A DNA stretch of 23,586 nucleotides from a virus, in the IMG/VR virus record IMGVR_UViG_3300020177_001040, positions 1 through 23,586 of that record. One strand, 5' to 3'. A program made the position numbers and the translations under genes. This document shows positions 6,673-23,537 of this stretch, in pieces. Position 1 is the first letter of the stretch, and each line of letters begins with the position of its first letter. Below the pieces are notes generated by a model. It made no database searches. It was given only the letters and a program-made list of their open reading frames with translations, and had not been told where the DNA came from.

Positions 6673-7782
6673 TTAGTTCTCCATAGCCTTAACAACATAC
6701 TTGCCAAACCGGTCAAAAAACTCCTTAAAGTTCGCCAGCTTGTCCGGCTGGAAGGGCAGGTTGTAGTTGGTGATAGCCGTACGAGCACCCATAACAGTCA
6801 TCTCCGTGGGGAAGAAGTCCATCATGAACCGGAAGAAGTTGTCAGCCATCTCGTGCCACCGCTTGGCGTCCTTCTTACCAAAGTCGTCGTAGGCATTCTT
6901 GAGCTCGTAACACATGCCAATAGTCAGGGCATACTGGGCGCTGATCTCCTTAATCTTGAGCTCCTTAACCTTGCCAGCAAGGATATCCGCAGGATGCGGC
7001 ATGTCCTTGGCAACCTTACGGTGCGCCATAAACTTAATCGCAACACCCTCACCCACGCAACCGCTGACTAGGTCAGTGAGCTCGCTGTCAGAGATTGCGT
7101 CGTCCTCCAGGAAGCGGCTAACATAGGTCCAGCTACGCGGCGTAGCAAACGAGCGGCCGCTAGAGCGAGGATCAAAGTCCATGAGATCCTGCTTGGCGAA
7201 GCTGATATAACCCACCACATCTTCATTGATCTGGTTGTTAACAGCCCAGTTCAGCCAGCTCTCATAGTCCGGACGGACCTCAAGGTGGACGAAACGGTTG
7301 GCCAGCGGAGTGGGCATACGGTAGGTAACACCCTTGTCGCTCTCACGGTTACCAGCAGCAACGATAACCACGTTATCGGGAAGCTTGTAGGTGCCGATGC
7401 GACGGTTGAGAATCAGCTGGTAGGCAGCGGCCTGCACAGCCGGCGCGGCTGAGTTCATTTCATCCAGGAACAGGATGACAGTATCATACTCAGCAGCCAT
7501 CTCCTCGCTGGGCAGATCCACAGGGGGAGCCCAGAGCATGTTATCCTGACTCTTGCTAAGGAACGGCATGCCACGCAGGTCCGTAGGCTCCATAAGAGCA
7601 ACACGGATATCTACCAGGGCAGTATTACCCAAGGTGCCCTTGTCAGCAATGCCAGCCATAAGCTCGCTCTTGCCTACACCCGGAGGCCCCCAGAGGAAAA
7701 CCGGAAGCTTATTGCGGAAAGCACGAACGATACGATTCTCGGCTTCTGCAAGAGTAACAGTACGGGCATCAATGTCTGCCAT
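6673..7782 (-). CDS. MoxR-family AAA+ ATPase
   Basis: 369 residues, ATG at 7782 after AAGGAG. Walker A is GPPGVGKS (32-39), Walker B is a hydrophobic strand ending Leu-Asp-Glu-Met-Asn (106-110), sensor 1 is Asn145 in Ala-Ala-Gly-Asn-Arg, and the arginine finger is Arg163 in Ala-Asn-Arg-Phe. This layout, with a helical C-terminal lid, is that of MoxR/CbbQ/NorQ ATPases, chaperone-like remodelers that work with a VWA-domain partner. The partner is present at 9012 on the opposite strand. The gene is clearly richer in G+C than the flanking regions. It is driven by the promoter at 7838-7811, which contains a dyad in its spacer. The target of the module in phage infection is unknown. Confidence 0.9.
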   Translation of the reverse strand: MADIDARTVTLAEAENRIVRAFRNKLPVFLWGPPGVGKSELMAGIADKGTLGNTALVDIRVALMEPTDLRGMPFLSKSQDNMLWAPPVDLPSEEMAAEYDTVILFLDEMNSAAPAVQAAAYQLILNRRIGTYKLPDNVVIVAAGNRESDKGVTYRMPTPLANRFVHLEVRPDYESWLNWAVNNQINEDVVGYISFAKQDLMDFDPRSSGRSFATPRSWTYVSRFLEDDAISDSELTDLVSGCVGEGVAIKFMAHRKVAKDMPHPADILAGKVKELKIKEISAQYALTIGMCYELKNAYDDFGKKDAKRWHEMADNFFRFMMDFFPTEMTVMGARTAITNYNLPFQPDKLANFKEFFDRFGKYVVKAMEN

Positions 7783-7810
7783 TTCTTTCTCCTTGTTTAA
7801 CTAATATCTA

Positions 7811-7838
7811 AACATAGCACATCTGTGCTATGTGTCAA
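7811..7838 (-). promoter_or_regulatory. Promoter with operator-like dyad for the MoxR operon
   Basis: Minus strand: TTGACA (7838-7833), 16-nt spacer, TATGTT (7816-7811). The spacer and its edges form a perfect inverted repeat: CATAGCAC (7813-7820) and GTGCTATG (7825-7832) on the plus strand, 4 nt apart. The -35 begins 4 nt beyond the stop of the upstream gene. The shared GGTTGAC...GTGC-TAT layout with its neighbours makes it one of a promoter family. Confidence 0.7.
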
Positions 7839-7841
7839 CCT

Positions 7842-8183
7842 TTACGAGCCAGTGGTAAGCCGGAAGCTACCATCCTCAACGAGATTAAAGCCTTCGACAA
7901 ACACATGCCAATCACCAACTTCACGTCTGGCCTGCTGGAAAACGGACTCAGCCGCTGCCCAAAAACCCTCTACAGTGTTCGTAGCAGTGAACGAGCTAAA
8001 CTCATATTCCTGCAGGTTCTCGTCAAAAGCACGATAAGTTACACGATACATATCACGCTCTTCGTTAACAACACGGTCGTTGAGATCAACAATCTCTTCG
8101 CCAAACATGCTCCAACGAGTCTCAAAACCCTGCTCGTTGCGCTTGTTGTCCAAATCTTCGATAACTTTGTACATCTTGTCCAT
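7842..8183 (-). CDS. Small hypothetical protein
   Basis: 113 residues from ATG at 8183. The frame opens at 8198, but that codon is part of the sequence ATGAGGAGCAAG, in which AGGAG is the ribosome site for 8183 (7-nt spacer). The N-terminus is charged and helical; the middle (about 45-75) is a Tyr/Phe-rich beta segment 'YRVTYRAFDENLQEYEFSSF'; a helix with Glu, Trp and Ala follows. No family is recognised. It has its own promoter (8239-8212) and shares a near-identical leader with the next two small genes, suggesting coordinated expression. Confidence 0.75.
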   Translation of the reverse strand: MDKMYKVIEDLDNKRNEQGFETRWSMFGEEIVDLNDRVVNEERDMYRVTYRAFDENLQEYEFSSFTATNTVEGFWAAAESVFQQARREVGDWHVFVEGFNLVEDGSFRLTTGS

Positions 8184-8211
8184 GTGCTTGCTCCTCATTT
8201 CCTATATATAC

Positions 8212-8239
8212 ATATTAGCACGTATAAGGGTTTCGTCAA
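8212..8239 (-). promoter_or_regulatory. Sigma70-type promoter (16-nt spacer family)
   Basis: Minus strand: TTGACG (8239-8234), 16-nt spacer ending CGTGC, TAATAT (8217-8212), then a 28-nt gap to the ATG at 8183 containing ATGAGGAGCAAG. It has the same GGTTGAC, spacing and pre-minus-10 GTGC as the promoters at 7838, 8531 and 8612, but its spacer is not a full inverted repeat. Confidence 0.7.
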
Positions 8240-8244
8240 CCGTT

Positions 8245-8472
8245 TTAGGCTATTTTTTCACCTAAATCTATACGCCAATCAAAGCAAGATTCCATCATCC
8301 GAACAGTGTTTTCCCAGGTATCAGGAAACTGTGAAACCAGCATGCCGTTAGGGTCGCGACCCATGAATCCATCGCCAATCTTGGTGATTGTTACATCACC
8401 GCTCGAACAGTTGATCGACTCCCACGTTTCTGTGGTACGCCAATCCGATTTCTTCCATTCGCTTATAAACAT
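8245..8472 (-). CDS. Small hypothetical protein
   Basis: 75 residues from ATG at 8472. In-frame codons reach 8505, but AGGAGCAAG lies just upstream of 8472, so the longer reading covers the leader and the promoter's -10 box. The protein is Trp-rich with 'GDGFMGRDPNGMLV' in the middle, probably a beta-hairpin, and two cysteines. It has no recognisable family, signal peptide or membrane segment. It lies between its own promoter and that of the next gene, so each of these small genes is a separate transcription unit. Confidence 0.7.
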   Translation of the reverse strand: MFISEWKKSDWRTTETWESINCSSGDVTITKIGDGFMGRDPNGMLVSQFPDTWENTVRMMESCFDWRIDLGEKIA

Positions 8473-8503
8473 ATGCTTGCTCCTCATTTCCAACTTATGC
8501 TTC

Positions 8504-8531
8504 ATAATAGCACGGGTAACCAGATAGTCAA
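8504..8531 (-). promoter_or_regulatory. Sigma70-type promoter (16-nt spacer family)
   Basis: Minus strand: TTGACT (8531-8526), 16-nt spacer ending CCGTGC, TATTAT (8509-8504), then a leader with GGAAATGAGGAGCAAG before the ATG at 8472. The 11 nt CCGTGCTATTA are identical to the plus-strand promoter at 8612-8639. Confidence 0.75.
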
Positions 8532-8544
8532 CCGTTTCTAACCT

Positions 8545-8566
8545 AAAAAAATCGCAGTTTTCTGCG
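8545..8566 (-). terminator. Intrinsic terminator hairpin, minus strand
   Basis: On the minus strand, CGCAG-AAAA-CTGCG (8566-8553) is followed by A and seven T residues (8551-8545). The stem is only 5 bp but the U-tract is strong. No minus-strand gene feeds it from the right for more than 1.6 kb, so it would stop antisense read-through just before the promoter at 8531. It is nearly identical to the hairpin at 8587. Confidence 0.6.
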
Positions 8567-8586
8567 GTTTAAAAAAATAATAGAAT

Positions 8587-8609
8587 CGTAGTTTTCTGCG
8601 GGTTTTTTT
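8587..8609 (+). terminator. Intrinsic terminator hairpin, plus strand
   Basis: CGTAG-TTTT-CTGCG (8587-8600, one G-U pair) is followed by GG and seven T residues (8603-8609). It ends 2 nt before the -35 box at 8612, so it would stop plus-strand transcripts arriving from the left before the promoter. It shares about 20 nt of sequence with the hairpin at 8545. Confidence 0.6.
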
Positions 8610-8611
8610 GG

Positions 8612-8639
8612 TTGACGATAATAGCATCCGTGCTATTAT
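8612..8639 (+). promoter_or_regulatory. Promoter with perfect operator-like dyad
   Basis: TTGACG (8612-8617), 16-nt spacer, TATTAT (8634-8639). The spacer plus -10 box is a perfect inverted repeat: ATAATAGCA (8618-8626) and TGCTATTAT (8631-8639), 4 nt apart. A dimeric repressor bound here would cover the -10 and spacer. A leader with GAGGAGCAAGAG follows to the ATG at 8670. Confidence 0.75.
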
Positions 8640-8669
8640 ACATTATAAGTTGAAATTGAGGAGCAAGAG

Positions 8670-8960
8670 ATGATCCACGTAGTAGACAGTGTCGTAGCAG
8701 ATATTCAGCAGATGACAGACCGCCAGCTGGACGATGTCGTCCATGCTATTAAGATGCGTCGTCAGCAGCTCACTAAGCAGAACATTCGCAAGCTGATGGT
8801 TGGTGATATTGTCAGCTTTGAGTCCACCCGCACTGGCTCAACTGTAACGGGCAAGGTCCGCAAGGTTGGTCGCAAGTGGGTGAATGTGTTCGAAGGCAAT
8901 ACCAACACTGTTTGGAAGGTTCCTGCTAACATGCTTACCCCTCTGCAAATTGGGGGGTAA
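8670..8960 (+). CDS. Small SH3/KOW-like phage protein
   Basis: 96 residues, ATG at 8670 after AGGAGCAAGAG. Residues 1-40 form a charged helix with Met-Arg-Arg-Gln-Gln. Residues 43-90 form a small beta-barrel pattern: 'VGDIVSFES', a Gly-Ser-Thr turn, 'VTGKVRKVGRKWVNVFEG', then 'TVWKVPANML'. This order (GD-x-V-x-F, G-x-V-x-K-x-x-x-K, W-x-V) is common in small phage proteins with SH3 or KOW-like folds, which often bind nucleic acid; that role is inferred. It is the first gene of the plus-strand pair leading to the VWA gene, but the VWA gene has its own promoter. Confidence 0.75.
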   Translation: MIHVVDSVVADIQQMTDRQLDDVVHAIKMRRQQLTKQNIRKLMVGDIVSFESTRTGSTVTGKVRKVGRKWVNVFEGNTNTVWKVPANMLTPLQIGG

Positions 8961-8964
8961 GCGG

Positions 8965-8992
8965 TTGACAGCCGCTGTCCTTATGTTAATAT
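8965..8992 (+). promoter_or_regulatory. Sigma70-type promoter for the VWA gene
   Basis: TTGACA (8965-8970), 16-nt spacer, TAATAT (8987-8992); AGGAG follows before the ATG at 9012. The -35 box sits in the loop of an inverted repeat, AGCGG (8960-8964) and CCGCT (8972-8976). This promoter lacks the GTGC seen before the other -10 boxes of the family (it has ATGT), so regulation may differ. Confidence 0.7.
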
Positions 8993-9011
8993 ATACATAT
9001 AGGAGATACAT

Positions 9012-10304
9012 ATGACCACGACTACAGCAAACAAGAAGCACGTAAACCTCCCTGTGGGGTTCGAGACAGTTCGTCAGGAAGATCTAGATGCTCGCGAGAA
9101 GCTCACTACTGCTCGCGTTAGCCTGCTTCTCAAGGCAGCATGGTTTGGTAATATGGCAACTCGGTTGCCGCTTGTGAATGCAGATCAGTGGTTGCCCACA
9201 GCAGCTACTGACGGTCGCCACTTCTATTATAATAGCAAGTTCATCAACATGCTCAAGAGCAAGGAAGTAGAGTTCCTGTTTGGGCATGAGGTACTTCACA
9301 ATGTCTACGAGCATCTGGGCCGTAGCAAGCTCAACAAACATGACGCTCAGATTGCGAACATTGCTGCTGACTTTGCTGTAAACGGAGATCTGGTGCAGAG
9401 CCGCATTGGTGAGCTTATTACTACAGTGCCTGCTCTACATGACCGTAAGTACTACAATATGAGCATGGAGGAGATTTACGACGATCTCTATGACAACGCT
9501 GAAAAGATTGATCTAGAGCAGTATATTGATATGCTGCTGGACGAGCATCTTGAAGGCGATGATGGCGAGGGCGGTTCTGGCGGCATTAGTGAGGACGAGA
9601 ACGGTAACCTCAAGAGCTCGGGTAAGCCCACTTATTCTGACGAAGAGCGCAAGAAGATCCGTGATGAGATTAAGGAAGCATTAATCAACAGTGCCAAGCA
9701 GGCTGGTGGCGCTGGTAACCTTCCTGCAGGTGTTGCTCGCATTGTTAAGGATCTTACTGAGCCCAAGATGGACTGGCGCAGCATGCTTGCGATGAGCATT
9801 GAAAGCTCAATCAAAAGCGACTACAGTTTTATGCGCCGTAGCCGTAAGAGCTGGGGCAGTGACTTCCTGCTGCCCGGCATGGTTCCTGAGACTACCATTG
9901 ATATTGCGGTTGCTGTGGATATGAGCGGCAGCATCAGCAACGAACAGGCCCGTGATTTCTTTAGCGAGATTAAGGCCATCATGGATATGTACACAGACTT
10001 CAAGATCAAGCTCTGGTGCTTCGATACCGAAGTCTATAACTACGCTGAGTTTGACGCTACCAACATCGACGACATCATGACATATGAGCCCCAGGGCGGT
10101 GGCGGTACGATGTTTGAATGTAACTGGAAATTTATGAAGGACAACGACATCCAGCCTAACCGGTTTGTGATGTTTACTGATGGTTATCCCTGTGGTACCT
10201 GGGGTGACGAATTCTACTGCGATACTGTGTTTATTATCCATGGTCCGGATAACATCAAGCCAGCATTTGGTAACTGGGCTTATTACGACAAAAAGGTTAA
10301 CTAA
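9012..10304 (+). CDS. Metallopeptidase-like/VWA-domain protein, partner of MoxR
   Basis: 430 residues, ATG at 9012 with AGGAG upstream. The N-terminal domain (about 30-160) carries His92-Glu93-x-x-His96 followed by Glu100, a zinc-peptidase HExxH signature. A Gly/Asp/Glu-rich linker runs about 180-215. The C-terminal domain (about 295-425) is VWA-like with an intact MIDAS: Asp303-x-Ser305-x-Ser307, Thr366 after a Gly run, and Asp390 in Phe-Thr-Asp-Gly. This is the arrangement of the 'putative metallopeptidase plus VWA-like' family that pairs with MoxR ATPases in bacteria. The ATPase is encoded divergently at 7782. Both are more GC-rich than flanking genes. Whether the HExxH is active cannot be told. 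It overlaps the convergent gene by 8 nt. Confidence 0.85.
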   Translation: MTTTTANKKHVNLPVGFETVRQEDLDAREKLTTARVSLLLKAAWFGNMATRLPLVNADQWLPTAATDGRHFYYNSKFINMLKSKEVEFLFGHEVLHNVYEHLGRSKLNKHDAQIANIAADFAVNGDLVQSRIGELITTVPALHDRKYYNMSMEEIYDDLYDNAEKIDLEQYIDMLLDEHLEGDDGEGGSGGISEDENGNLKSSGKPTYSDEERKKIRDEIKEALINSAKQAGGAGNLPAGVARIVKDLTEPKMDWRSMLAMSIESSIKSDYSFMRRSRKSWGSDFLLPGMVPETTIDIAVAVDMSGSISNEQARDFFSEIKAIMDMYTDFKIKLWCFDTEVYNYAEFDATNIDDIMTYEPQGGGGTMFECNWKFMKDNDIQPNRFVMFTDGYPCGTWGDEFYCDTVFIIHGPDNIKPAFGNWAYYDKKVN

Positions 10305-13845: not shown

Positions 13846-14214
13846 TCATTTATACTCTACTCTGCCATCACCTAAGTCGTTACGAGTTACCATAGCTTCA
13901 TCTTTTTCATAGCTTTCCATAACCACGTGCCTGCAGACATCCTGAAACCAGCGATCTACCATATCGTTTTCATTTTCGTCACGGTAACCTTTTTTCCAAA
14001 GCAATTTAATAAAAGGTTGGTTCCAGTCTAATTCAAAAGCACCATTGCCAGGATTTTCCTGATCAACTTCTACACTAAGGACACTAACCCAGGGCTCACC
14101 CTTTTCTGTAGCAATTTCCTTTTCTGATTTTTTAGGTGCGCGTGGCTTAGGTTCCTCAACACGTTTGGCTTTACCCAAACCCATAGCACTTTTTGCGTCG
14201 TCTAGTATTCCCAT
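13846..14214 (-). CDS. Conserved T4-like-phage hypothetical protein
   Basis: 122 residues from ATG at 14214, supported by GGAGG 9 nt upstream; the frame is open to 14313 but only inside the phosphatase gene. The first 50 residues are basic and Pro/Lys-rich; then 'EIATEKGEPWVSVLSVEVD', a Gly-Asn-Gly turn, 'FELDWN', and a helical part with 'ENDMVDRWFQDVCRHV'. The pattern 'KE.AT..GEP.V.V..VE.D..NP..G.FELDWN..F...L...GY' is one I associate with marine T4-like phages. Function is unknown. It overlaps the phosphatase gene by 13 nt. Confidence 0.75.
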   Translation of the reverse strand: MGILDDAKSAMGLGKAKRVEEPKPRAPKKSEKEIATEKGEPWVSVLSVEVDQENPGNGAFELDWNQPFIKLLWKKGYRDENENDMVDRWFQDVCRHVVMESYEKDEAMVTRNDLGDGRVEYK

Positions 14215-14759
14215 TCTATGAAACCTCCAGTCTCTATTTCCCAATCTACAACAGATTCCGGTGTATTTTTTCCAAAAATCACACTTGCTGCTCTTATAGT
14301 ATTTCCGTGACAAACAAAAATAATCGGAAGATTACTTTGTTCTATATTGTCCAAATAATTTGCTACTCTACTAGCAGTATCTTTCAAACTCTCACCGTTA
14401 GGGGGAGCAATGTCCCAGCCTCGGCGTATAGATAAAAATCTTTCATCTCCTACACTTAAACGGTTTTCATCCTTGTTTTTACCGCTCCAATCACCATAGT
14501 CACGTTCACGCAATCTACTATCTATTTCTGTCTCAACAAACCATGGCGAGCTTTGTAAAATTATACTAGCTGTCTGTACTGCTCTACGAAGATCGCTAGT
14601 ATGTATACTAGCGATCATTGTGTATCTTTGAGCTAAAATTCTAGCTGTTTCAAATGCCTGTTCTACCCCAAGTTGGGTAAGATCAGGATCGTGCCAACCC
14701 GTTGCTAAATTTTTAGCATTATATTCGCTTTGTCCGTGTCTTACCCAAACTGTTCTCAT
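14202..14759 (-). CDS. Histidine phosphatase, short dPGM-like
   Basis: 185 residues. The RHG signature is 'WVRHGQSEYN' with His8 the phosphate acceptor; 'TGWHDPDLTQLG' follows as in 2,3-bisphosphoglycerate-dependent phosphoglycerate mutase. Further dPGM-like blocks are 'SDLRRAVQTA', 'RLRERDYGDWSGKNK' and 'PPNGESLKDTASRV', ending in a second catalytic His in 'FVCHGNTIRA'. It is 45-65 residues shorter than typical GpmA (about 230-250), with a shortened helical insert, so phosphatase activity on a small phosphorylated metabolite is at least as likely as mutase activity. It follows QueE after 33 nt with no strong ribosome site. Confidence 0.8.
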   Translation of the reverse strand: MRTVWVRHGQSEYNAKNLATGWHDPDLTQLGVEQAFETARILAQRYTMIASIHTSDLRRAVQTASIILQSSPWFVETEIDSRLRERDYGDWSGKNKDENRLSVGDERFLSIRRGWDIAPPNGESLKDTASRVANYLDNIEQSNLPIIFVCHGNTIRAASVIFGKNTPESVVDWEIETGGFIEWEY

Positions 14760-14792: not shown

Positions 14793-15656
14793 TTAGGTTC
14801 CCCAGGCGTTACCGAAGACGTCGACGTGGAGGCGTGGGCTATATCTGTAGCCTTTTTCGAGGGCGAGCTCTGCGACTTGACGACCGTTTTTGAAGTAACT
14901 GTCTGTCGTACCGCCAACAGGCATGAGGTAAACCGGCGCTTCAAGTCCCGCAGATCTATATTCTGCAACAGCTCTATCAACTTCTGCCACGTCAACATCA
15001 TCAGAAACAACGAACTTAAGATACAAGTGGCTGTTAGGAACACTAGCGTACTTAACAGCAACATCAGGCTTGATAGCATCAACCCAAGTATGTCCACTAA
15101 CCGATAGTTTAGGGGAGCAAGAGAATGTAATGTGTACCTGTTGATTATCTGTGAGGTACGTTTTGAAATCCTCTGACAGAGATTGTGTAGTATTAGTTTC
15201 GAACGTGACATTCTTCAAGTCCTTCATGCGTGGATGTTCTAGCAACTGTATATATGCTCGTTGCCAACCTAATAGAGGCTCACCGCCTGTGATTACCAAA
15301 TGGATATCCTGACCATTATCCAATGACCATGCACCTGTTGGTGTAAGTGCAAGTAGATCATCAACCAGCTGATCAATGTCTACATCATGTTGAAAACGTT
15401 TGAATGCAGGGTGCCAAGCAGCATAGCTATCGCACCCTACAGTCACAAGTGGGAGATCCTCAAGTGTATCATAGTTATCAATCTCATCTACAATCTTTTG
15501 GATCTGAGGCTCTGCTGTTTCGTTACTGTTCCTAGCAATACCAAACTTAGGACAAGTAAAGTTACAACCATACATACGAAGGAATACACTGGGCACACCT
15601 GTCCAGCGACCTTCTCCTTGAACTGAATAAAACGCTTCAGTATATCTTACTTTCAT
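14793..15656 (-). CDS. queE: QueE-type 7-carboxy-7-deazaguanine synthase, variant radical SAM
   Basis: 287 residues, ATG at 15656 with GAGG 5 nt upstream. QueE is a radical-SAM enzyme converting 6-carboxy-tetrahydropterin to 7-carboxy-7-deazaguanine. The N-terminus fits QueE: 'YSVQGEGRWTGVPSVFLRMYGCN'-like start (10-32 region). The usual C-x3-C-x2-C cluster motif is altered: Cys31 and Cys35 are present, but the third ligand is probably Cys75 in 'GCDSYAAW', which matches the canonical 'WCDT.Y.W' and is displaced by about 39 residues. The SAM-binding Gly-Gly-Glu is at about 124-126, and 'CSPKLSVSG' resembles the later QueE region. It works downstream of QueD (16320) in 7-deazaguanine synthesis. 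The inserted residues contain no other Cys. Confidence 0.85.
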   Translation of the reverse strand: MKVRYTEAFYSVQGEGRWTGVPSVFLRMYGCNFTCPKFGIARNSNETAEPQIQKIVDEIDNYDTLEDLPLVTVGCDSYAAWHPAFKRFQHDVDIDQLVDDLLALTPTGAWSLDNGQDIHLVITGGEPLLGWQRAYIQLLEHPRMKDLKNVTFETNTTQSLSEDFKTYLTDNQQVHITFSCSPKLSVSGHTWVDAIKPDVAVKYASVPNSHLYLKFVVSDDVDVAEVDRAVAEYRSAGLEAPVYLMPVGGTTDSYFKNGRQVAELALEKGYRYSPRLHVDVFGNAWGT

Positions 15657-15665
15657 TGACGCCTC

Positions 15666-15854
15666 TTAGTCTACAGTTACGTGTTTTTTTAGTTCATCAA
15701 TCATCTTAGCCTTTGTAAGACGACGATCGAGGTTGATACCATGATCTGCTGCCCAGTCATCAACTTGCTTCTTTGTCATCTTGTTAAGCTCAGCTTCTGT
15801 AATAACAGCAGGTGTGTCTCCAACTCCTAGCCATTTCATAATGCATTTAAACAT
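15666..15854 (-). CDS. Small HeH/SAP-like helical protein
   Basis: 62 residues from ATG at 15854, chosen because GGAG lies 6 nt upstream; it overlaps the queD stop by 8 nt (ATGTTTAA). Alternative starts at 15866 and 15881 lack a good site. The C-terminal 40 residues, 'ITEAELNKMTKKQVDDWAADHGINLD' split by a turn and followed by 'LTKAKMIDELKKHV', fit the helix-extended loop-helix of HeH/LEM or SAP-like domains, often found in phage proteins and able to bind DNA. The first 20 residues include two Cys and a Trp. It sits between queD and queE. Confidence 0.65.
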   Translation of the reverse strand: MFKCIMKWLGVGDTPAVITEAELNKMTKKQVDDWAADHGINLDRRLTKAKMIDELKKHVTVD

Positions 15855-16320
15855 CGAATTCTCCATCTTCTCTGTGACCAACTCGCATAGCCATATTTGA
15901 GTCAGTTTCTCTTACCTCAACCTTACAGCACCATACCCTAGTGCCAGGTTCCCAACTAGGTAAAAATATTGTGTTTACGTATTCATACAAAAAGTCTGAC
16001 AGACCTTCACATCCAGTCTTTTCAACTTCTGTAATCTTTGCTAGGCCTTTCTTGCCTAGTTCTAGTAGCGTGTCGCGGTCTGGATCATCCTGTGCTACTA
16101 GCAGAGTGTGATCAAACCAATCTTCTAAGCTATCCTTTAGTGGACGTAATCCACCAAAGTCTACTACCCAGTTACGAGCATCTAGGTCATCAGTTTCAAA
16201 TTCAAAATGGAAACTTAATGCGTATCCGTGGATAAGATTGCAGTGTGAATCTGCTCTCCACTGTCTGTATGCTACTGGACCTAAATGCCTGTATGTTTTT
16301 GTACTAATATATTTTGCCAT
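15847..16320 (-). CDS. queD: QueD-family 6-carboxytetrahydropterin synthase (variant)
   Basis: 157 residues, ATG at 16320 with AAGGAG 7 nt upstream. The family converts dihydroneopterin triphosphate to 6-carboxy-tetrahydropterin, the substrate of QueE. The active-site block is 'SHCNLIHGYALSFHF': Cys27 and His31 align with E. coli Cys27 and His31, but the third position of the His-Gly-His zinc motif is Tyr33. 'NWVVDFGGL' and 'WFDHTLLV' (catalytic His71) are clear, and 'VEVRETD' (Glu138) matches the substrate-binding Glu. This 'SHC..IHGYALSF' subgroup occurs in alphaproteobacteria, as I recall. It heads a transcription unit with its own promoter and a structured leader. Confidence 0.88.
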   Translation of the reverse strand: MAKYISTKTYRHLGPVAYRQWRADSHCNLIHGYALSFHFEFETDDLDARNWVVDFGGLRPLKDSLEDWFDHTLLVAQDDPDRDTLLELGKKGLAKITEVEKTGCEGLSDFLYEYVNTIFLPSWEPGTRVWCCKVEVRETDSNMAMRVGHREDGEFDV

Positions 16321-16425: not shown

Positions 16426-17247
16426 TTAATTCTGAAGTAAGTTAATGAGATTAGTTTTTGACCAATCTTGGTTATTGATTTTTCTATTTTTAGTTATATG
16501 TACTAGTTTAAGATGAATAGAATCTGGAAATAATCTATATTCTAGTGTCTTATGTCTGACAGGAAAATTATATAAAGCAGCTCGAGAGTAATCATCCGTC
16601 TTTGTAATATCTAGATTGATTGCCTGTGATAGTAGAATTTCGGGAGTAAAGAAGAAGAATCCACCAATTAGTTGATTGGTCAACTCAAGAGCAAATTCAC
16701 TTATCTCTACAGAATAAATGGGTTCTTTACTAGCTTGCTTTGGGTGATAAGGTGTTAAAGGAAGTGTAGGACCACCGACTATTAAATGACCAGAATGTTT
16801 TTTTGCAATACTACTTAAAAAAAGATCTATGCAATTTCCTATATTAACAAACGGAACTTTTTTTAAAAAGGTCGTATAAATTTTTAAAATATCTTGTGAA
16901 TAAAATTCTAAGTCAAGAATGATAGATTTTATATTCCGCGCATTACACCAATCTATAGCAAATTCATGATCATTATTAGTAGGGTTTATTCCTATTAATG
17001 GTGTAAAGTTAATATTATTTTTATACAAAGTTTCAGCAACAAATTGACTATCCATGCCTCCACTAAGTCCTAGGAAGATATCTTTGTATTTTTCAGCTAT
17101 TGTTCTTGCAGTGTAATCAGCAGCTTCAAAAAAATTCAGTTGTCGAGCCGGAGACTTGTGATTAAAATTAACCTCAAATGTGTTCAATGACGTATTTACA
17201 GTGACATTATACCAGTTATCTAATCCACCATCGCCAGTTATGATCAT
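16426..17247 (-). CDS. PP-loop ATPase, asparagine-synthase-like
   Basis: 273 residues, AT-rich, ATG sharing one base with the preceding stop (TAATG). The ATP-binding PP-loop is Ser62-Gly-Gly-Met-Asp-Ser67, preceded by 'IFLGL'. 'PTNNDHEFAIDWCNARNI' and 'IILDLEF' follow, as in asparagine-synthase C-terminal and related AMP-forming amidotransferase domains. Such enzymes adenylate a carboxylate and replace it with an amide using ammonia. There is no glutaminase domain (no N-terminal Cys nucleophile). It is not QueC: the C-terminal Cys cluster of QueC is absent. Next to queD/queE it could amidate a deazaguanine or sugar carboxylate, but this is speculation; phages also use such proteins in glycan synthesis. 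Confidence 0.7.
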   Translation of the reverse strand: MIITGDGGLDNWYNVTVNTSLNTFEVNFNHKSPARQLNFFEAADYTARTIAEKYKDIFLGLSGGMDSQFVAETLYKNNINFTPLIGINPTNNDHEFAIDWCNARNIKSIILDLEFYSQDILKIYTTFLKKVPFVNIGNCIDLFLSSIAKKHSGHLIVGGPTLPLTPYHPKQASKEPIYSVEISEFALELTNQLIGGFFFFTPEILLSQAINLDITKTDDYSRAALYNFPVRHKTLEYRLFPDSIHLKLVHITKNRKINNQDWSKTNLINLLQN

Positions 17248-17822
17248 TAATTCTTTCTCATTTTAGCATTTAGAGCATCTTCGCTAACTGCTTGAAACGC
17301 TATAATTGTTCTCATTTCCTTACAACGTCGCTGCGGCCCTTTGCCTACATGGGCAATACTACTATCAAATGTAATAAGCTTTCTGGGTTCATATTCGCTA
17401 GCTTCTACGACACCATCCTTATAAAAGGCCGTTTCCCCGCCCCAGTTCTGTTCCCATACCTTGTCTGTATAAAGTACACCTGTAATACTTACATCAGGAT
17501 GTGGCCAGTCTGTATGGATATCACCATCAATGCCAAACGTATTACTACTGGCCATAAACCTAACAAGTTTATAATTGCCCGGGCATAACTCTAAAAATCT
17601 ATCTTTTAGTGAACGTAACAGATTGGTCACTATCTCTTGATCTGGTTTGAACTCAAATGTTCTAATATCCCAAAAGTTTTGGAACCACATGGGATAGTTT
17701 GGTTGGATTGTATTGTCGCTTACCTGACCAAAACGCCAGCGTGGAGCATACAACACCAATGCTTGTAACATGCCATGTTCATCCTCTGAGATCCAGTCTT
17801 TGTGTGTTTCAAATAATGCCAC
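17247..17822 (-). CDS. 2-oxoglutarate/Fe(II)-dependent oxygenase
   Basis: 191 residues from GTG at 17822 (GGAG 8 nt upstream); ATG at 17828 is only 2 nt from that site and is less likely. The double-stranded beta-helix core has the iron facial triad His103-x-Asp105 ('HTDWPHPD') and His158 in 'FDSSIAHVG', with Arg171 as the 2-oxoglutarate ligand. 'GVLYTD' and 'GGETAFY' are typical of the prolyl-4-hydroxylase-like branch common in marine phages. The substrate is unknown: protein, nucleic acid or small molecule. It overlaps the DUF3307 gene by 14 nt and is coupled to the PP-loop gene. Confidence 0.85.
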   Translation of the reverse strand: MALFETHKDWISEDEHGMLQALVLYAPRWRFGQVSDNTIQPNYPMWFQNFWDIRTFEFKPDQEIVTNLLRSLKDRFLELCPGNYKLVRFMASSNTFGIDGDIHTDWPHPDVSITGVLYTDKVWEQNWGGETAFYKDGVVEASEYEPRKLITFDSSIAHVGKGPQRRCKEMRTIIAFQAVSEDALNAKMRKN

Positions 17823-18171
17823 GTGCATAACTCCAAATAGCAACATATGTTAACATATGTAATAGTTGATCAAAACCAAACAATATCCAATACTGCTGAT
17901 GTGCTGGTGTCAGTTTCATAACACGCGATACTAGTTCTTTACAATAATCAATAGTGTAGTGTACGGCGAAATCAGCTAATCCAACAAATAGAGCAAAAGG
18001 CCAACCAATAAAATAATAACAAATAACAAATGTAAAGACACCGTGTATAGCTGCATGGATCAGTCCACCTAGACCAAATGGTTTACTTTTTGCCTGGATC
18101 ATCCACGGAGTTTGTAAACAGAAGTCGCTGAGCCAGTGCTTAACTAGCAGTGCTATTAAGAGTTCAATCAT
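17809..18171 (-). CDS. DUF3307-type membrane protein
   Basis: 120 residues from ATG at 18171 (GGAG 8 nt upstream; its A is shared with the preceding TGA). Three or more hydrophobic segments are visible (about 1-15, 40-65 and 95-115). 'KHWLSDFCLQTPWM' then 'K..G...HAAIHG' match the His/Asp pattern of the DUF3307 family of small inner-membrane proteins, with 'HYTIDYCKE' further on. Function is unknown in that family; the conserved His and Asp residues might bind a metal. A phage-encoded inner-membrane protein may affect the host envelope. Confidence 0.75.
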   Translation of the reverse strand: MIELLIALLVKHWLSDFCLQTPWMIQAKSKPFGLGGLIHAAIHGVFTFVICYYFIGWPFALFVGLADFAVHYTIDYCKELVSRVMKLTPAHQQYWILFGFDQLLHMLTYVAIWSYARGII

Positions 18172-18683
18172 CACCACCACTCCTCATAGGGGAATACGAC
18201 CCATGTATCTTCTTCAGCTTTGTTAATTTCAATGCTTGTATAATCGATGTTAAATGGACTTGCAAGATTGTTTACAATAGTTGCAAAGCGAACATTCTGA
18301 TTCCAAACTTTATCCCATCGGTGTTCATTTGGATGACAGCCTGCCGGCCAATCTTCTTTAATCCATTGGAATGTAGCACCACTATCGTTAATATCGTCTA
18401 GGATAAGAATTTTCTTATCTTCATATATGCCACCCATTTGGAAAATACCAAATGCATCTTCTGCCATCCAACAGTTGGATTCTTGTTCATCGCCATCACG
18501 CAAACGAACATCCAGTGTGTGCATTTTAATACCTGTAAGATGACTCATTAGAACAGCAGGAATTAATCCACCTCTGGTAATACCTACAATATAATCGGGC
18601 CGCCAGTTGTCAGCATACATTTGCTTTATAACGTTATGTACACCCTTTTCAATATCTCGATTAGACAGATATAATTTTTTCAT
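18171..18683 (-). CDS. Purine-type phosphoribosyltransferase
   Basis: 170 residues. The PRPP-binding loop is 'ILILDDINDSGATF' (Asp-Asp-x3-Ser-Gly-x-Thr), and 'IVGITRGGLIPAVLMSH' supplies the pyrophosphate loop. The length and order resemble xanthine/guanine or hypoxanthine phosphoribosyltransferases, which make a nucleotide from a free base and PRPP. Residues 115-130 are an insert rich in His, Trp and Arg. A role in nucleotide salvage or in attaching ribose-5-phosphate to a modified base are both possible. It overlaps the cupin gene by 23 nt, with AAGGTGAGAG before the ATG. Confidence 0.85.
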   Translation of the reverse strand: MKKLYLSNRDIEKGVHNVIKQMYADNWRPDYIVGITRGGLIPAVLMSHLTGIKMHTLDVRLRDGDEQESNCWMAEDAFGIFQMGGIYEDKKILILDDINDSGATFQWIKEDWPAGCHPNEHRWDKVWNQNVRFATIVNNLASPFNIDYTSIEINKAEEDTWVVFPYEEWW

Positions 18684-19098
18684 CTCTCACCTTTTGCTTA
18701 CGCCATTCAAAATACTTTTCATTGTGCATCCATTTGCCGTTGACAATGAAACCCCACTCACGTAGTTTAGGACCAGGAATGAATAGTGACCAAGCACATA
18801 CTCCTGGTTCTAGTTCTACACGATGTAGACTCTTAGGACCGCTAAAACGCATGTGTCCTGGACCACGCCAGAAGCGTCCTTTAGGAGTAGTCTCCCAATA
18901 ACCCCCACGTAAGATTAGCGTGAAGTAGGGCCAGGGATGATCGTGTAGTTCATCCGGATCGCTTTGTAAAAACTTATGTAAAAATACATTAAATGGAAAC
19001 CATTTACGATCTTTTAGAAACAAGTAATACCTAACCAAGTAGGGCTTCTGCCCAATGCGATCTAGGATTACACGTTTCCTATCTTTGAACATATTCAT
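18661..19098 (-). CDS. Cupin-like phage protein
   Basis: 145 residues. The centre has His52-x-His54-Pro-Trp after Asp-Glu-Leu, 'LILRGGYWE' with Glu69, and His92 in 'SLHRVEL', which together fit the metal-binding motifs of a cupin barrel. The C-terminal 'WSLFIPGPKLREWGFIVNGKW' is a pattern repeated in tailed-phage proteins of this type. The activity is unknown. The ATG overlaps the upstream TGA (ATGA) with no clear ribosome site; a second in-frame ATG is two codons on. Confidence 0.75.
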   Translation of the reverse strand: MNMFKDRKRVILDRIGQKPYLVRYYLFLKDRKWFPFNVFLHKFLQSDPDELHDHPWPYFTLILRGGYWETTPKGRFWRGPGHMRFSGPKSLHRVELEPGVCAWSLFIPGPKLREWGFIVNGKWMHNEKYFEWRKQKVRDEKIISV

Positions 19099-19553
19099 AA
19101 ACTGTATTCGTAGTTATCAGTTGCAGTATTGTTCTGCAAAGTAACTGCTCCATTGTTTAAGTGAAACCTCCGTGCCATATCCGTTTTTGGACTTAGTGTA
19201 ATAAGACGTTTGACTTTATCATTTGCACGACATTCATCTAGCAAACGAAAAACAACGTCTCTGCCAGCACGTGGCGCACGACTCCAAACTGTATATGCTA
19301 CGCAAATAGAACCGTGTTGATCTTCCTGACAAGCAGCCTGACTCATAAGGTCAAGTTCCTTTACAGTAGTTGGTACTTCATTAGTATAGGCAACGCAAAT
19401 TGCTGCCTGATACTTACCGTCCGTTTCCAACACATAAACCCGACGACCCGGGCCCAACCTAAAATTAAGGTCAAGCTCGGGTCTCACGGGGTCGTGGTTG
19501 GTATCAAACTGTAGTGCTTCTACATTTTCATATGTCAGCGTAGTTAGGTTCAA
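19095..19553 (-). CDS. GNAT-like acetyltransferase
   Basis: 152 residues from a TTG start with AAGGAG about 9 nt upstream. The C-terminal two-thirds look like a diverged GNAT fold: 'AAICVAYTNEVP' strands, 'ICVAYTVWS' (the central strand), an Arg-Ala-Gly-Arg loop in the acetyl-CoA pyrophosphate position, a helix 'VVFRLLDEC', and 'RLITLSPKTDMARRFHLNNGA' as the final motif, common in phage GNATs. The acetyl-CoA loop is shorter than the Q/R-x-x-G-x-G/A consensus. The acceptor is unknown; host or phage protein acetylation is possible. Confidence 0.7.
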   Translation of the reverse strand: MNLTTLTYENVEALQFDTNHDPVRPELDLNFRLGPGRRVYVLETDGKYQAAICVAYTNEVPTTVKELDLMSQAACQEDQHGSICVAYTVWSRAPRAGRDVVFRLLDECRANDKVKRLITLSPKTDMARRFHLNNGAVTLQNNTATDNYEYSL

Positions 19554-19565
19554 TACCTTTTCTCC

Positions 19566-22500
19566 TTAGAACTTCAAGTTCACTTTCATGCCTAGGTTAA
19601 CTTCATTGTTACCTGAGACACCTGCAACATTGCTACGATGCTCTGCATAGCCAGCAAGTGCAACATTGTTTACATTATATTTTACAAACAAACCGGTATC
19701 ATATTCAATATTTTTCGTACTTGCATCAGCACTTCCTTCATTAAATAATACCTGTCCGTCAAGTGTACGTCCTACTGGAACCTTGTAGTTCATCTTACCG
19801 CTTGTAACTGTCATTGGCTGACTAAAGTTAGCGCCAACAGTCCACCCGTTAGTAAACTTGTAACCTGCACCGACACCCCAACTGTTACTTACTAGGGTGC
19901 TGTACCCAGTTACTAGACTAAACTCCTTGGATGACTCAACGTCTGTCATGCCCAACTGGAAGTTACCAAACCCAAACCAGTTCTCATCAAACTTGTGATT
20001 GAGACGCAAGCCTGCATAGTTTGTGGTGTGTGACTCACCAACTCCCATAAAGCCTTCCTGAACGTTGTTAAGGAACTTACCTGTCTCCTTAATCATTCCA
20101 AGTGCGGCAGTAATAGTAGTTTCTTCGCTACTATGCACATCATACTCTGTACGCATGCCCCAGTCGCCATTGGCTTTAGCATCTGGGTCAAACTTGAATG
20201 ATGTCCTAATACCAAACAAGTCACTAGTGCCTTCGCCGGCATTAGCAAGATTCCAATAACCGTCATAGTTTGCACCAAAACTTAGTGCTTCTGTTGACGA
20301 TCCAGGACGAGTATCAATAGCTTGAGTGTTGTTTAGATTGATTGTAAAATCACGCTCAAAGCTATCAAGCACCGTAACATTACTTAGTGCCGCAAATGCA
20401 TCGCTACTAATACTTCCGACAGCAGCGCCACCACTTAGTGTTTCAAGGTTAGCAATAGCACCACTCGTACGCCCGCTTGTTGGAATACCTGTTGCACCTA
20501 CAGGCTGTGTAGCCTTGTCCAAGTCCAACATGCCTTGTCCATGTGTTTCCACAGTGTAACCTGGCAGGTCCTTGTTAGTAGTCTGCAGAACAAGTTTAAC
20601 GAGGTTTTCACCTTTCATATGTGGCCACATCTGGTGTAGGATAGCAAGTGATCCTGTAACCACAGGAGCAGCCATACTTGTACCACTCATTGTTACAGTT
20701 GTGCCATCCTTGTAAGCACTTTCAATACGTTCGCCTGGAGCAAGGATATAGAAGTCGCTAGCCCTTGCAGCATCTTTACAGAGATTATTTGTAAAGTCCC
20801 AGGTGGCACAAACAGTACCAGCCTTGTTGCTGAAACTAGAGATTTTATTGTTAGTAACATCATAGCTACCAACAATCAGCATGCGTCCGCCCATAATAAG
20901 GTTTCCATTTGCATCAGTAGCATGGGCCATCTGTGCACTGCCTGATACATAGTCTTTAGCAAAGTTACCAGCACTGTTCACAAGGATCTGTTCGCTACCT
21001 AGTGCAGTCGCCCACAACTTGGCTTCGTCTACAGCACCATTGTATCCATTCTCACCGTAGTACCAGTGATTACTGTAATTCATTCCAGAACCGATATTTA
21101 CGATACTGCTTCTGAACGCACTGTCTTCATTCCAGTTTGCACTGGCACTGAAAGCAATACTACCCAAATCTCTGGCCCATGCTGCGCCAGCTCTAGCTCG
21201 CTGGAAGCTATAAACAGTGCTGTCAGTCACCTTAACTACAGCTACGTCTGCATCGAATGCAACACCGTGGATGCCTGACCCGTTCTTACGCCCAGCCGCG
21301 ATGCCCAACACATGACTACCGTGACCAACGTTGTCATCCATAAAAGTGTTAGTGCCGCCAGTTAGTGTATTATACTCATGCTTCACCGCACTAGAAAGAT
21401 CTGTATGATCTCTGTCCCAGCCAGTATCAGCAATGGTAATTAGACTGCCTTTACCTGTCCAACCACGTGAGTAAGCAACATCTGCTTTAACAGCACTCAG
21501 AAAGTTTACGCCTTTAGTGCCTGTAAATTCTGATGTACGATAACTTGTTGGATCAGTATTATAACCTGCTGTGCGAGTTCCCATATCCGGGTGATCGTCA
21601 GCAATAGGCGTAGTATCAGCCGGCGCATCTGTGGTTGTGGTGCTCATTACCTTGGTCCAGGTATCCTTGGCAACAGTACTAGCAGTCTTTACATCAGTAA
21701 CAGTGTCACCACGAATAATCTTCTCAGTACCATCAGTCCAAATCTGCTTGGTGACTGGAGTAGTTTTTGTGGTAGTAGTAGTTGTTACTGTGGCTGTAGT
21801 GGTATAGTAACGAGTAACTGTTGTAATGATTTTGCTATCAACTGTTTCAGTTGTAGTTTTATCCTCATAAACAGTATCAAATACCGGCTCGCTCTCTACT
21901 ACTTCAGTAATGATTTCGTTTGTTGTTGTTTCCTTGGTAACCACATGTTCAGTAGTTGAGTTACTAGTGGACTCACTAGTAGTTACTACTACTTCGTTTT
22001 CCACACTACTAATAACTTCATCCGTAGCATCATGAGTGAACGAGTGTCCATCCTCATATGTATAGACGCTGATCTTAGGATAAGTTTTAGTAGTAGTAAC
22101 TGGCGTGGTAGTCGTTGTAGTTGTCTTACGAATCGTATTGTGTAGAATGCTACCATCACTCTGTGTAACCTTCTCTACACGATCTTCGTATACATTCTCG
22201 ACTGACGCTGAACCGCGTGTAACCGTAATTGCAGGATCGTTATTTTCTTTAACACTGTAAGCAATAGTTTTAGATAGCGATTCAGTACTTACCTGCGGTG
22301 ATGCATCAAGAGTTACCTTATAAGGAACTTCTCGTTCTGCACCATTTTCAGTCTTAGTTGTACCATCGCTGAATACAGAGGTTGTTACGTTCTGTAATGT
22401 AACACTCCAGCTACGATCATATACCATCTTCTTAGTTGTAGTGCGTGTCCAGCTAGCAGTACGAGTTAGGTCACTAATTCCAGTGCCGCCACGCACTGTC

Positions 22501-23114
22501 TGCTCACCGTCTGTAACAACGGTTTCACTAATACGCTCTGCCGAACTTGTAGCTGTAGTTTCAGATACCTTTACTGCGCTTGTGCTTGAGCTAATAAGAG
22601 TTGGTACAACATTATTAAAGATATCCTTTTTAGTATCTTCAATAACCTTATCCAGTGATTCTTTCTTTTCCATAAAGACAAACTTGGTAGTATCGTAAGC
22701 CTTGCCTTCAGTTACGTTAACAACAAGTGGACGCACCTGATTTTTGAGGATGTTTACTACAGCTTCAGCTTTCTGAAAGTCAGGATCAGCTAGTTTTACT
22801 GCCAAGAGTTTGGCATTCATTTCTGCCTTATGGCTATCCCAACTAGCTATAACATTGTCAATCTTGCTGACAATGTCTCCTGCCATATGTTTGTCTGCTT
22901 GTGTAGGATTAAGGATTGCACTAAGGCTTGATGCGCCCTGTGCTTCCATTACTGCTGCCTCTAGAGCAGAAATTTCACCTGAGATAGCAGCAAAATTGAT
23001 ATTCGCTGTAGGACTAAGTTCACGCTTTACTGTGTTAACTGCGCTTCCGCCACCCTGACACGCTGTCAGCATTGTAGTGGCGAGCAATGCGCTTGCTAGT
23101 GTCTTATAAGTCAT
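19566..23114 (-). CDS. Lipoprotein subtilisin (S8) with C-terminal beta-barrel
   Basis: 1182 residues, ATG at 23114. Residues 1-19 form a lipoprotein signal ending in the lipobox Leu-Thr-Ala-Cys19. Residues 40-170 are helical. Residues 180-505 are Thr/Ser/Val-rich with recurring Asp-Gly-[Thr/Ser/Glu/His] turns (202, 250, 320, 355, 461). The S8 peptidase domain spans about 535-870: Asp563 in 'IADTGWD', His598 in 'GHGSHV', oxyanion Asn717 in 'SAGNF', Ser813 in 'SGTSMAAP'. The last 230 residues have alternating amphipathic strands with Gly/aromatic patterning and end Asn-Leu-Lys-Phe, as in outer-membrane beta-barrels and autotransporter translocators. The protein probably sits at the host outer membrane with the protease on an exposed passenger. 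Such a gene is unusual in a phage; a bacterial origin or lysogenic-conversion-like role is inferred. Cys769 and Cys779 could form a disulfide. Confidence 0.85.
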   Translation of the reverse strand: MTYKTLASALLATTMLTACQGGGSAVNTVKRELSPTANINFAAISGEISALEAAVMEAQGASSLSAILNPTQADKHMAGDIVSKIDNVIASWDSHKAEMNAKLLAVKLADPDFQKAEAVVNILKNQVRPLVVNVTEGKAYDTTKFVFMEKKESLDKVIEDTKKDIFNNVVPTLISSSTSAVKVSETTATSSAERISETVVTDGEQTVRGGTGISDLTRTASWTRTTTKKMVYDRSWSVTLQNVTTSVFSDGTTKTENGAEREVPYKVTLDASPQVSTESLSKTIAYSVKENNDPAITVTRGSASVENVYEDRVEKVTQSDGSILHNTIRKTTTTTTTPVTTTKTYPKISVYTYEDGHSFTHDATDEVISSVENEVVVTTSESTSNSTTEHVVTKETTTNEIITEVVESEPVFDTVYEDKTTTETVDSKIITTVTRYYTTTATVTTTTTTKTTPVTKQIWTDGTEKIIRGDTVTDVKTASTVAKDTWTKVMSTTTTDAPADTTPIADDHPDMGTRTAGYNTDPTSYRTSEFTGTKGVNFLSAVKADVAYSRGWTGKGSLITIADTGWDRDHTDLSSAVKHEYNTLTGGTNTFMDDNVGHGSHVLGIAAGRKNGSGIHGVAFDADVAVVKVTDSTVYSFQRARAGAAWARDLGSIAFSASANWNEDSAFRSSIVNIGSGMNYSNHWYYGENGYNGAVDEAKLWATALGSEQILVNSAGNFAKDYVSGSAQMAHATDANGNLIMGGRMLIVGSYDVTNNKISSFSNKAGTVCATWDFTNNLCKDAARASDFYILAPGERIESAYKDGTTVTMSGTSMAAPVVTGSLAILHQMWPHMKGENLVKLVLQTTNKDLPGYTVETHGQGMLDLDKATQPVGATGIPTSGRTSGAIANLETLSGGAAVGSISSDAFAALSNVTVLDSFERDFTINLNNTQAIDTRPGSSTEALSFGANYDGYWNLANAGEGTSDLFGIRTSFKFDPDAKANGDWGMRTEYDVHSSEETTITAALGMIKETGKFLNNVQEGFMGVGESHTTNYAGLRLNHKFDENWFGFGNFQLGMTDVESSKEFSLVTGYSTLVSNSWGVGAGYKFTNGWTVGANFSQPMTVTSGKMNYKVPVGRTLDGQVLFNEGSADASTKNIEYDTGLFVKYNVNNVALAGYAEHRSNVAGVSGNNEVNLGMKVNLKF

Positions 23115-23169: not shown

Positions 23170-23197
23170 ATAATAACACAGAGTCTAGACTTGTCTA
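23170..23197 (-). promoter_or_regulatory. Promoter of the protease operon (16-nt spacer family)
   Basis: Minus strand: TAGACA (23197-23192), 16-nt spacer ending GTGT, TATTAT (23175-23170). This is the layout of the 7.8-9.0 kb promoters (GG before the -35, 16 nt, GTG just before TATTAT). The spacer contains the 10-bp palindrome AGTCTAGACT. Confidence 0.6.
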
Positions 23198-23216: not shown

Positions 23217-23537
23217 TTAATGTGGAAGTTTAAACATTTCCAACTTAATAATACTACTAATTTTTGTATCAAAATCATCTTCGTCATTGATAATATAAAG
23301 ATTACTATTATTAACGTCGTTAAGACCATCATATCTATTGAATTGAATTATATATCCACCTGTAGCTCTAGCAACTTGCATATTTAATCCTTCTACCCCT
23401 ATATTACTGGGAGTAGGCCTACCATGAGTAGGGACGTTAGGAATACTCCTAGCGTCGACGCTAGGGGTTGAATTACAAGATTGCGATTCCCACGCCTTTT
23501 TACTTTGTTTATAAAACCATTTATCAAACCATTTCAT
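23217..23537 (-). CDS. Conserved small phage protein
   Basis: 106 residues, ATG at 23537 preceded by AAGGAAAG. The basic, aromatic N-terminus 'MKWFDKWFYKQSKKAW', a Pro/Ser linker, and a C-terminal domain 'GGYIIQFNRYDG', 'NSNLYIINDEDDF', ending in a Lys-Leu-Glu-Met helix, resemble a conserved T4-like marine phage hypothetical, from memory. The C-terminal domain is alpha/beta. Function is unknown. The 102-nt gap to the protease gene holds that gene's promoter and dyad. Confidence 0.75.
   Translation of the reverse strand: MKWFDKWFYKQSKKAWESQSCNSTPSVDARSIPNVPTHGRPTPSNIGVEGLNMQVARATGGYIIQFNRYDGLNDVNNSNLYIINDEDDFDTKISSIIKLEMFKLPH

Follow-up and report, generated by a model that had tools for sequence, protein, structure and literature searches.

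Why would a phage encode a protein built like a bacterial surface protease, and what would such a protein do during infection? The question is raised by IMG/VR virus record IMGVR_UViG_3300020177_001040, a record of 23,586 bases known from environmental DNA and analysed here at its full length (the window). A single open frame of 1182 codons fills positions 23114..19566 of its minus strand, and the plus strand of the same interval contains many stops. This gene (19566..23114, minus strand), identified by its open frame, its match to PF00082 and its viral relatives, encodes a predicted lipoprotein with a peptidase S8 domain and a C-terminal outer-membrane beta barrel. On balance, the protein is probably a membrane-anchored subtilisin that works like the bacterial proteases NalP and SphB1 and cuts surface proteins of the infected cell, removal of phage receptors being its likeliest use.

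Domain architecture of the protein

The protease domain spans Pfam residues 554-861 (20532..21455, minus strand), where PF00082, the sole Pfam family matched by the protein, is found with an E-value of 3.5e-30. The catalytic triad D563, H598 and S813 and the oxyanion residue N717 are invariant in alignment A4, which comprises the window protein and 52 relatives (53 rows). By fold, the region is close to subtilisin BL (Z 37.3) and to Ssp, an autotransporter of Serratia marcescens (8e7f; Z 36.8, 28% identity over 308 residues), and among solved structures Ssp is likewise the nearest match to the domain by sequence (E 4.3e-19). Judged by its triad, its oxyanion Asn and its subtilase fold, the protein is assigned to peptidase family S8 (subtilases). 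The coding sequence before residue 871 is under purifying selection: four out of five comparisons give nonsynonymous substitutions per site (dN) of 0.10-0.36 against synonymous ones (dS) of 0.9-2.3, and for the remaining one, with locus L047, one dS could not be computed. Among phage protein families, phrog_3677 ('protease') is matched with an E-value of 1e-28, residues 326-902 aligning to positions 362-854 of a profile of 1125. In a defence library scan, the S8 protein matched a generic subtilase model, and three neighbours of the S8 gene gave no match. No tandem repeats were found within the gene.

The N-terminus, MTYKTLASALLATTMLTACQGG, reads directly as a short signal peptide (residues 1-19; 23058..23114, minus strand) ending in the lipobox LTAC (23058-23069), with the putative lipid-accepting Cys19 followed by Gln. 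Lipobox-like N-termini, called from the sequence itself, occur in 32 of 53 non-redundant family rows and in 3 of the 888 other genes in these loci, a comparison in which the start codon of family members was picked in favour of a lipobox, at least 440 residues were required before the Ser motif, and control genes were read from their first start. The 21 rows lacking a lipobox are L010 and L054, whose 5' end is cut, L070 with the near lipobox LQNC, L069, the bacterial L038 and L039, and 15 members of one tree clade whose start resembles an ordinary signal peptide; L038 has LAGC-GGGG further into the protein. Behind the signal peptide, the full-length AlphaFold model (53-row alignment; mean predicted local distance difference test score, pLDDT, 75.8; predicted template modelling score, pTM, 0.51) places a helical domain at residues 39-167 (22614..23000, minus strand; block pLDDT 48-83), followed by a Thr-rich beta stalk at residues 171-506 (21597..22604, minus strand), whose long, low-confidence strands lie at 173-496, the S8 domain, a linker and the barrel. 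The stalk is recognized from this model and from composition, Thr making up 19.6% of the residues ahead of the S8 domain.

The C-terminal part consists of a linker (residues 872-957; 20244..20501, minus strand) conserved around VLDSFERDF and DTR, and of an outer-membrane beta barrel (residues 958-1182; 19569..20243, minus strand) that ends in VNLKF and is supported by both model and fold matches. Modelled alone from a 50-row alignment, residues 872-1182 reach a pLDDT of 84.8 and a pTM of 0.81. All eight PDB rows returned by Foldseek at E-values of at most 0.001 are outer-membrane barrels, NalP (1uyn; 4.5e-4) among them, and VIA-align matches the model to NalP (1uyo) at Z 11.7 over 200 residues and to EspP (8qn4_F) at Z 11.7 over 190. 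The alignments with NalP and EspP 8qn4 start at model residues 24 and 26 (residues 895 and 897 of the protein), ahead of the barrel, and those of the OmpG, OmpT and CymA rows at model residues 65-87. This early start hints at a linker lodged in the barrel pore of the predicted structure, although VIA-align gives first and last residues only. A short helix (904-910) precedes the barrel, in which DSSP assigns 10-12 strands, a range from which no exact number is claimed; classical autotransporters have 12, with an alpha-helix of the linker lodged in the pore.

The window protein ends in Phe, and a C-terminal Phe or Trp is found in 41 of 54 relatives, against 50 of 888 other genes. All 13 relatives with another ending belong to the second of two locus types described below, and where they were read they carry about 50-75 extra residues behind the barrel. 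This conserved tail of second-type members, unusual for a barrel, contains Cys in L025, L027, L029 and L034 and has a common end such as HGLVYDLETDKFVPI, similar ends being present in L074, L077, L084, L087 and L090.

An earlier sequence-only reading of this DNA had described a lipobox, a Thr-rich stalk, a complete S8 triad and a C-terminal barrel ending in Phe, together giving the build of a bacterial autotransporter protease, and had proposed structure prediction as a check. Each of these elements was recovered, and the modelled C-terminal region does contain a barrel.

Phage genome and gene neighbourhood

Over 23,581 bases, the window matches part of viral contig G001 (105,168 bases) at 99.99-100% identity. 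G001 also carries genes for a DNA polymerase (phrog_262, E 2e-194) and for proteins that match virion and tail families. G001 may be a fragment, and searches of it for gp23, the T4 capsid gene, and for Terminase_6N found neither. The sequence-only reading was right to place the gene in a phage; a bacterial fragment misclassified as viral is ruled out by the neighbours and the 105 kb contig. An assembly or frame artefact was likewise rejected, because an identical protein is present on two more contigs (L004 and L009).

A scan of IMG/VR with the window protein yielded 38 relatives in 36 loci, and a scan with alignment A1 yielded 110 stretches encoding relatives, of which 80 were kept. Removal of near copies, and of nine loci of the series L001-L103 in which the search pattern gave no plus-strand frame (L001, L040, L056, L059, L067, L081, L093, L094 and L097), left 54 non-redundant viral loci; the 5' end is cut or short in five of them (L010, L016, L021, L054 and L071). 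In all 54, the S8 gene occupies one of two places. The first type (40 loci) has queE downstream among 7-deazaguanine genes, at a distance of 728-6836 bases from the S8 stop (median 2771), and folE upstream in 28 of the 40. The second type (14 loci) has downstream a gene that is cytidylyltransferase-like by PHROG and Pfam; upstream, 12 of these loci have a ClpA-like gene and 10 a gene that looks deformylase-like by eye. It is known that 7-deazaguanine genes can modify phage DNA.

The window belongs to the first type. Its minus strand carries QueE at 14793..15656 (cluster downstream of S8 in 40/54 loci), QueD at 15847..16320 (25/54) and a phosphoribosyltransferase at 18171..18683 (38/54), and a gene for a Vut_1-type transporter occurs in seven loci, the phage of the window included. 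The genes directly flanking the S8 gene had been taken for small conserved phage genes. This holds for the downstream one (152 amino acids; 19095..19553, minus strand), which has no family match and whose cluster is present in 15 of the 54 loci, but not for the upstream one (106 amino acids; 23217..23537, minus strand), which has no family match and is confined to its own locus among the 54 compared. Searches for RNA families at gathering score and for tRNAs returned none.

Several other genes of these loci deserve mention. Adjoining QueD, 16426-17247 encodes a PP-loop-like protein (FLGLSGGMDSQ) with a weak NAD_synthase match only, which could be QueC-like. The product of 17247-17846 is named 'DNA endonuclease V' by PHROG (E 1.2e-19) and is a sub-threshold 2OG-Fe(II) oxygenase by Pfam; the PHROG name looks wrong. 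Two genes within 6673-10304 face opposite ways: the minus strand encodes an ATPase (phrog_1297) and the plus strand a protein with a match to phrog_1314 ('HNH endonuclease'), which looks VWA-like by eye. Elsewhere on the phage contig of the window, L104:2504-5012 encodes proteins resembling, on visual inspection, the TctA and TctC components of a tripartite tricarboxylate transporter; the TctA-like one has no PHROG match. A phage-encoded Nol-like carbamoyltransferase (phrog_1601) is found at L107:9144-10670.

Expression signals and distance from structural genes

A sigma70-like site, TAGACA-N16-TATTAT, lies upstream of the S8 gene at 23170..23197 (minus strand). Sites scoring at least 11, out of a maximum of 13, precede 27 of 48 S8 genes, whereas in the control set of 865 other plus-strand genes from these loci 132 have one; the Fisher p of 4e-10 for this contrast is too small, because the loci are related and their relatedness was left uncorrected. 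The T4-type late motif ATAAATA is present in none of 50 upstream stretches, one of which (L016) starts internally, but this absence means little and could arise by chance, the whole 105 kb contig containing just 17 copies of the motif.

Among 24 contigs, many of which may be fragments, gp23 was found on four and Terminase_6N on four, both together on three. On the four contigs with gp23, the S8 gene lies 70-190 kb from it along the contig, as worked out from ranges. On G001, the fibre-like genes lie at about 88-100 kb and the S8 gene at 45-49 kb, that is, 39 kb or more apart. The promoter-like site and the distance from gp23 favour an action in the living infected cell.

Recombination and bacterial copies

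The allele of the window (L004) is a mosaic. Compared with L002, L005 and L007, its nucleotide identity is 0.68-0.69 before the S8 domain, 0.79-0.80 within it and 0.95-0.99 in the barrel, and dS falls from 0.9-2.1 before residue 871 to 0.05-0.16 behind it. Judging from these sequences, the passenger and the barrel of this allele differ in their history, the switch falling near residue 871. The flanking DNA is itself mosaic (72-99% identity), so recombination is general here. A check of other close pairs for passenger exchange (14 results) gave a strong contrast only in pairs with L004, and a slight one in L080/L083; the exchange may thus be a single event.

The family extends beyond phages, to chromosomal copies in a few Proteobacteria. 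A scan of genome contigs recovered three bacterial loci; judged by eye, L038 lies among Mla-type transporter-like genes and L039 has an rfbA-like gene next to it. In a profile search at E-values of at most 1e-60, copies were found in 2 of 385 genomes for the class of L038 and in 4 of 136 at the level of its order; in the order of L039, 1 genome out of 293 had one. Each count includes the seed genome. The four copies of the former, an alphaproteobacterial order (L117, L118, L119 and L038), share 49, 45, 44 and 41% identity with their respective best phage relatives and have no phage-like neighbours; one of them is carried by a single chromosome of 2,753,527 bases. In a tree of 60 rows (54 viral and 6 bacterial), these four group together (100/100) within a mixed viral clade (97/99), L039 falls inside another viral clade, and the bacterial label needs three changes. 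Bacteria may possibly have taken a surface protease from phages, with tree places and direction uncertain because L039 and L040 sit on long branches and the composition of five rows is unusual.

Proposed role and alternatives

A surface-displayed protease made during infection is the most likely reading, because the anatomy of the protein is that of NalP and SphB1. It would be produced in the infected cell, exported and displayed on the cell surface, probably held by a lipid anchor. There, an active S8 passenger would cut surface proteins of that cell. Phage receptors or other surface proteins would in this way be altered or removed, so that the cell is not infected again or progeny are not trapped; receptor removal is the benefit we favour. 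It is known that phages place small lipoproteins in the host outer membrane, such as Llp of T5 on FhuA, and an FhuA-Llp entry is present among the Foldseek matches of the barrel.

Several observations weigh against a NalP-like surface protease. The query template modelling scores of the eight best Foldseek rows are just 0.32-0.44, and porins match the barrel as well as or better than NalP does (VIA-align Z 13.5 for a Vibrio OmpT variant and 13.4 for OmpG, against 11.7). Alignment starts do not separate the groups cleanly either: the autotransporter BrkA aligns only from model residue 96 (967), and one FadL entry already from 29. By sequence, none of 50 barrels matches PF03797 (Autotransporter) at an E-value of at most 1, and a search of the PDB with the barrel profile gave no outer-membrane barrel chain, its sole row being a ribosomal protein (E 0.14). 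Because of the missing PF03797 matches, the window protein is best described, by its sequence, as autotransporter-like rather than as a member of the classical autotransporters (type Va), and is filed only in S8. The stalk sits before the S8 domain, beside the lipid, and promoter scores are mostly low in the 14 second-type loci. Virion-like genes are also close. In L050, a gene of 121 codons has a product that scores E 9.5e-15 against phrog_13349 ('virion structural protein'); members of its cluster occur in 31 of 54 loci, 3.2-7.7 kb downstream of the S8 gene (the relative in the window, recognized by eye, is at 13846-14313). Upstream of the S8 gene, 13 of the 14 second-type loci carry a gene weakly matching a virion protein (E 2.8e-5, L077). 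Moreover, one report assigns the queuosine genes of Far-T4 phages to the structural module, where they occur together with genes for GTP cyclohydrolase and a phosphoribosyltransferase (PMC4360716).

These last points bear on a protease that is part of the virion, tail- or capsid-associated and carried to the next host. Since virion-like genes lie a few kb from the S8 gene (3-8 kb downstream in those 31 loci, or upstream in the second type), a late or virion role keeps some weight, but a lipobox signal and an outer-membrane barrel make little sense in a virion, the S8 gene is far from gp23 and from the fibre-like genes of its own contig, and bacterial copies exist away from phage-like neighbours; such a role is very improbable. 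A periplasmic enzyme is also rather improbable, though less so. In that arrangement, the lipid would sit on the inner leaflet and the barrel would anchor the S8 domain in the periplasm, for breakdown of the envelope at lysis or clearance of misfolded proteins. The model lends it some credit: with an even strand number, and a periplasmic C-terminus assumed, the N-terminus of the barrel would face the periplasm, and passage to the surface would need threading. Against this, the alignments with NalP and EspP begin ahead of the barrel, NalP shares the design and functions at the cell surface (PMC5472700), and many members have the sigma70-like site.

The remaining alternative keeps the protease at the surface and changes the benefit, which would be nutritional or protective: an auxiliary metabolic gene whose product digests external protein for peptides or destroys hostile proteins. 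Chromosomal copies lacking phage-like neighbours suggest a use to free-living bacteria, and many phage neighbours are metabolic genes, but the same data suit any surface role and contain no pointer to nutrition specifically; we consider this benefit unlikely.

A large, probably lipid-anchored protease carried by a barrel and retained across diverse phages would make the cutting of surface proteins of the infected cell a normal part of infection by these phages, and the gene would be a candidate agent of superinfection exclusion or of progeny release in aquatic bacteria. In addition, one alphaproteobacterial order becomes a lead towards the hosts, and bacteria may here have acquired a surface protease from phages. 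A broader scenario can be sketched, though as a whole it is doubtful: a protease devoted to the cell surface would have persisted for long in T4-type phages, at conserved genomic positions that mostly adjoin 7-deazaguanine genes, and would strip receptors or other proteins from the infected cell, so as to exclude superinfecting phages or let progeny get away; its passenger could be exchanged while the barrel is kept (one case), and at least two bacterial lineages would have taken the gene from phages.

Comparison with known systems

The closest known systems are NalP of Neisseria meningitidis and SphB1 of Bordetella pertussis, which three papers describe as lipidated S8 autotransporters whose lipidation is thought to hold the passenger for a time at the cell surface, where it processes surface proteins (PMC9977779, PMC5472700, PMC9289746). 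The sequence-only reading had called a lipid-anchored N-terminus combined with a barrel odd in itself; these two proteins contradict it, and a claim that the combination is unprecedented is ruled out. The window protein shares with them the lipobox, the S8 domain and the C-terminal outer-membrane barrel, the NalP barrel being among its fold matches. It differs in being encoded by a phage, in the order of its parts, with the S8 domain adjoining the barrel and a stalk of about 330 residues N-terminal of it, and in a barrel that is not PF03797 by sequence. Ssp, classified as a subtilisin-like autotransporter of Group 15 (PMC9289746), is not from a phage, and its S8 domain aligns from chain residue 31 (8e7f), without a long stalk ahead.

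The four chromosomal copies of the alphaproteobacterial order share a lipobox-like N-terminus, the S8 domain and the barrel region with the phage proteins, but have a short spacer instead of the long stalk. Among named phage proteins, UniProt A0A6J5TBB6 from an uncultured Caudovirales phage aligns over 700 columns (template modelling score 0.79 of the target, E 6.6e-43; barrel alone E 8.0e-16); it is shorter (689 amino acids) and bears the generic name 'Peptidase S8/S53 domain containing protein'. The subtilisins of Bacillus phages (SP-15, Goe3 and others) share the S8 domain, with matches confined, or nearly so, to the protease domain, and their named hosts are Bacillus. In tblastn searches of annotated phage records, the window protein matched 1 record, L030 30, L027 1 and L079 31, mostly in the protease domain and in no case over 80% of the query. 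A literature search that left most subscription journals outside recognized no account of a phage-encoded S8 autotransporter. Set beside these systems, what is new about the window protein is its setting, in phages and at conserved places of their genomes, and not the design that joins a lipid anchor to a barrel, which it has in common with NalP and SphB1.

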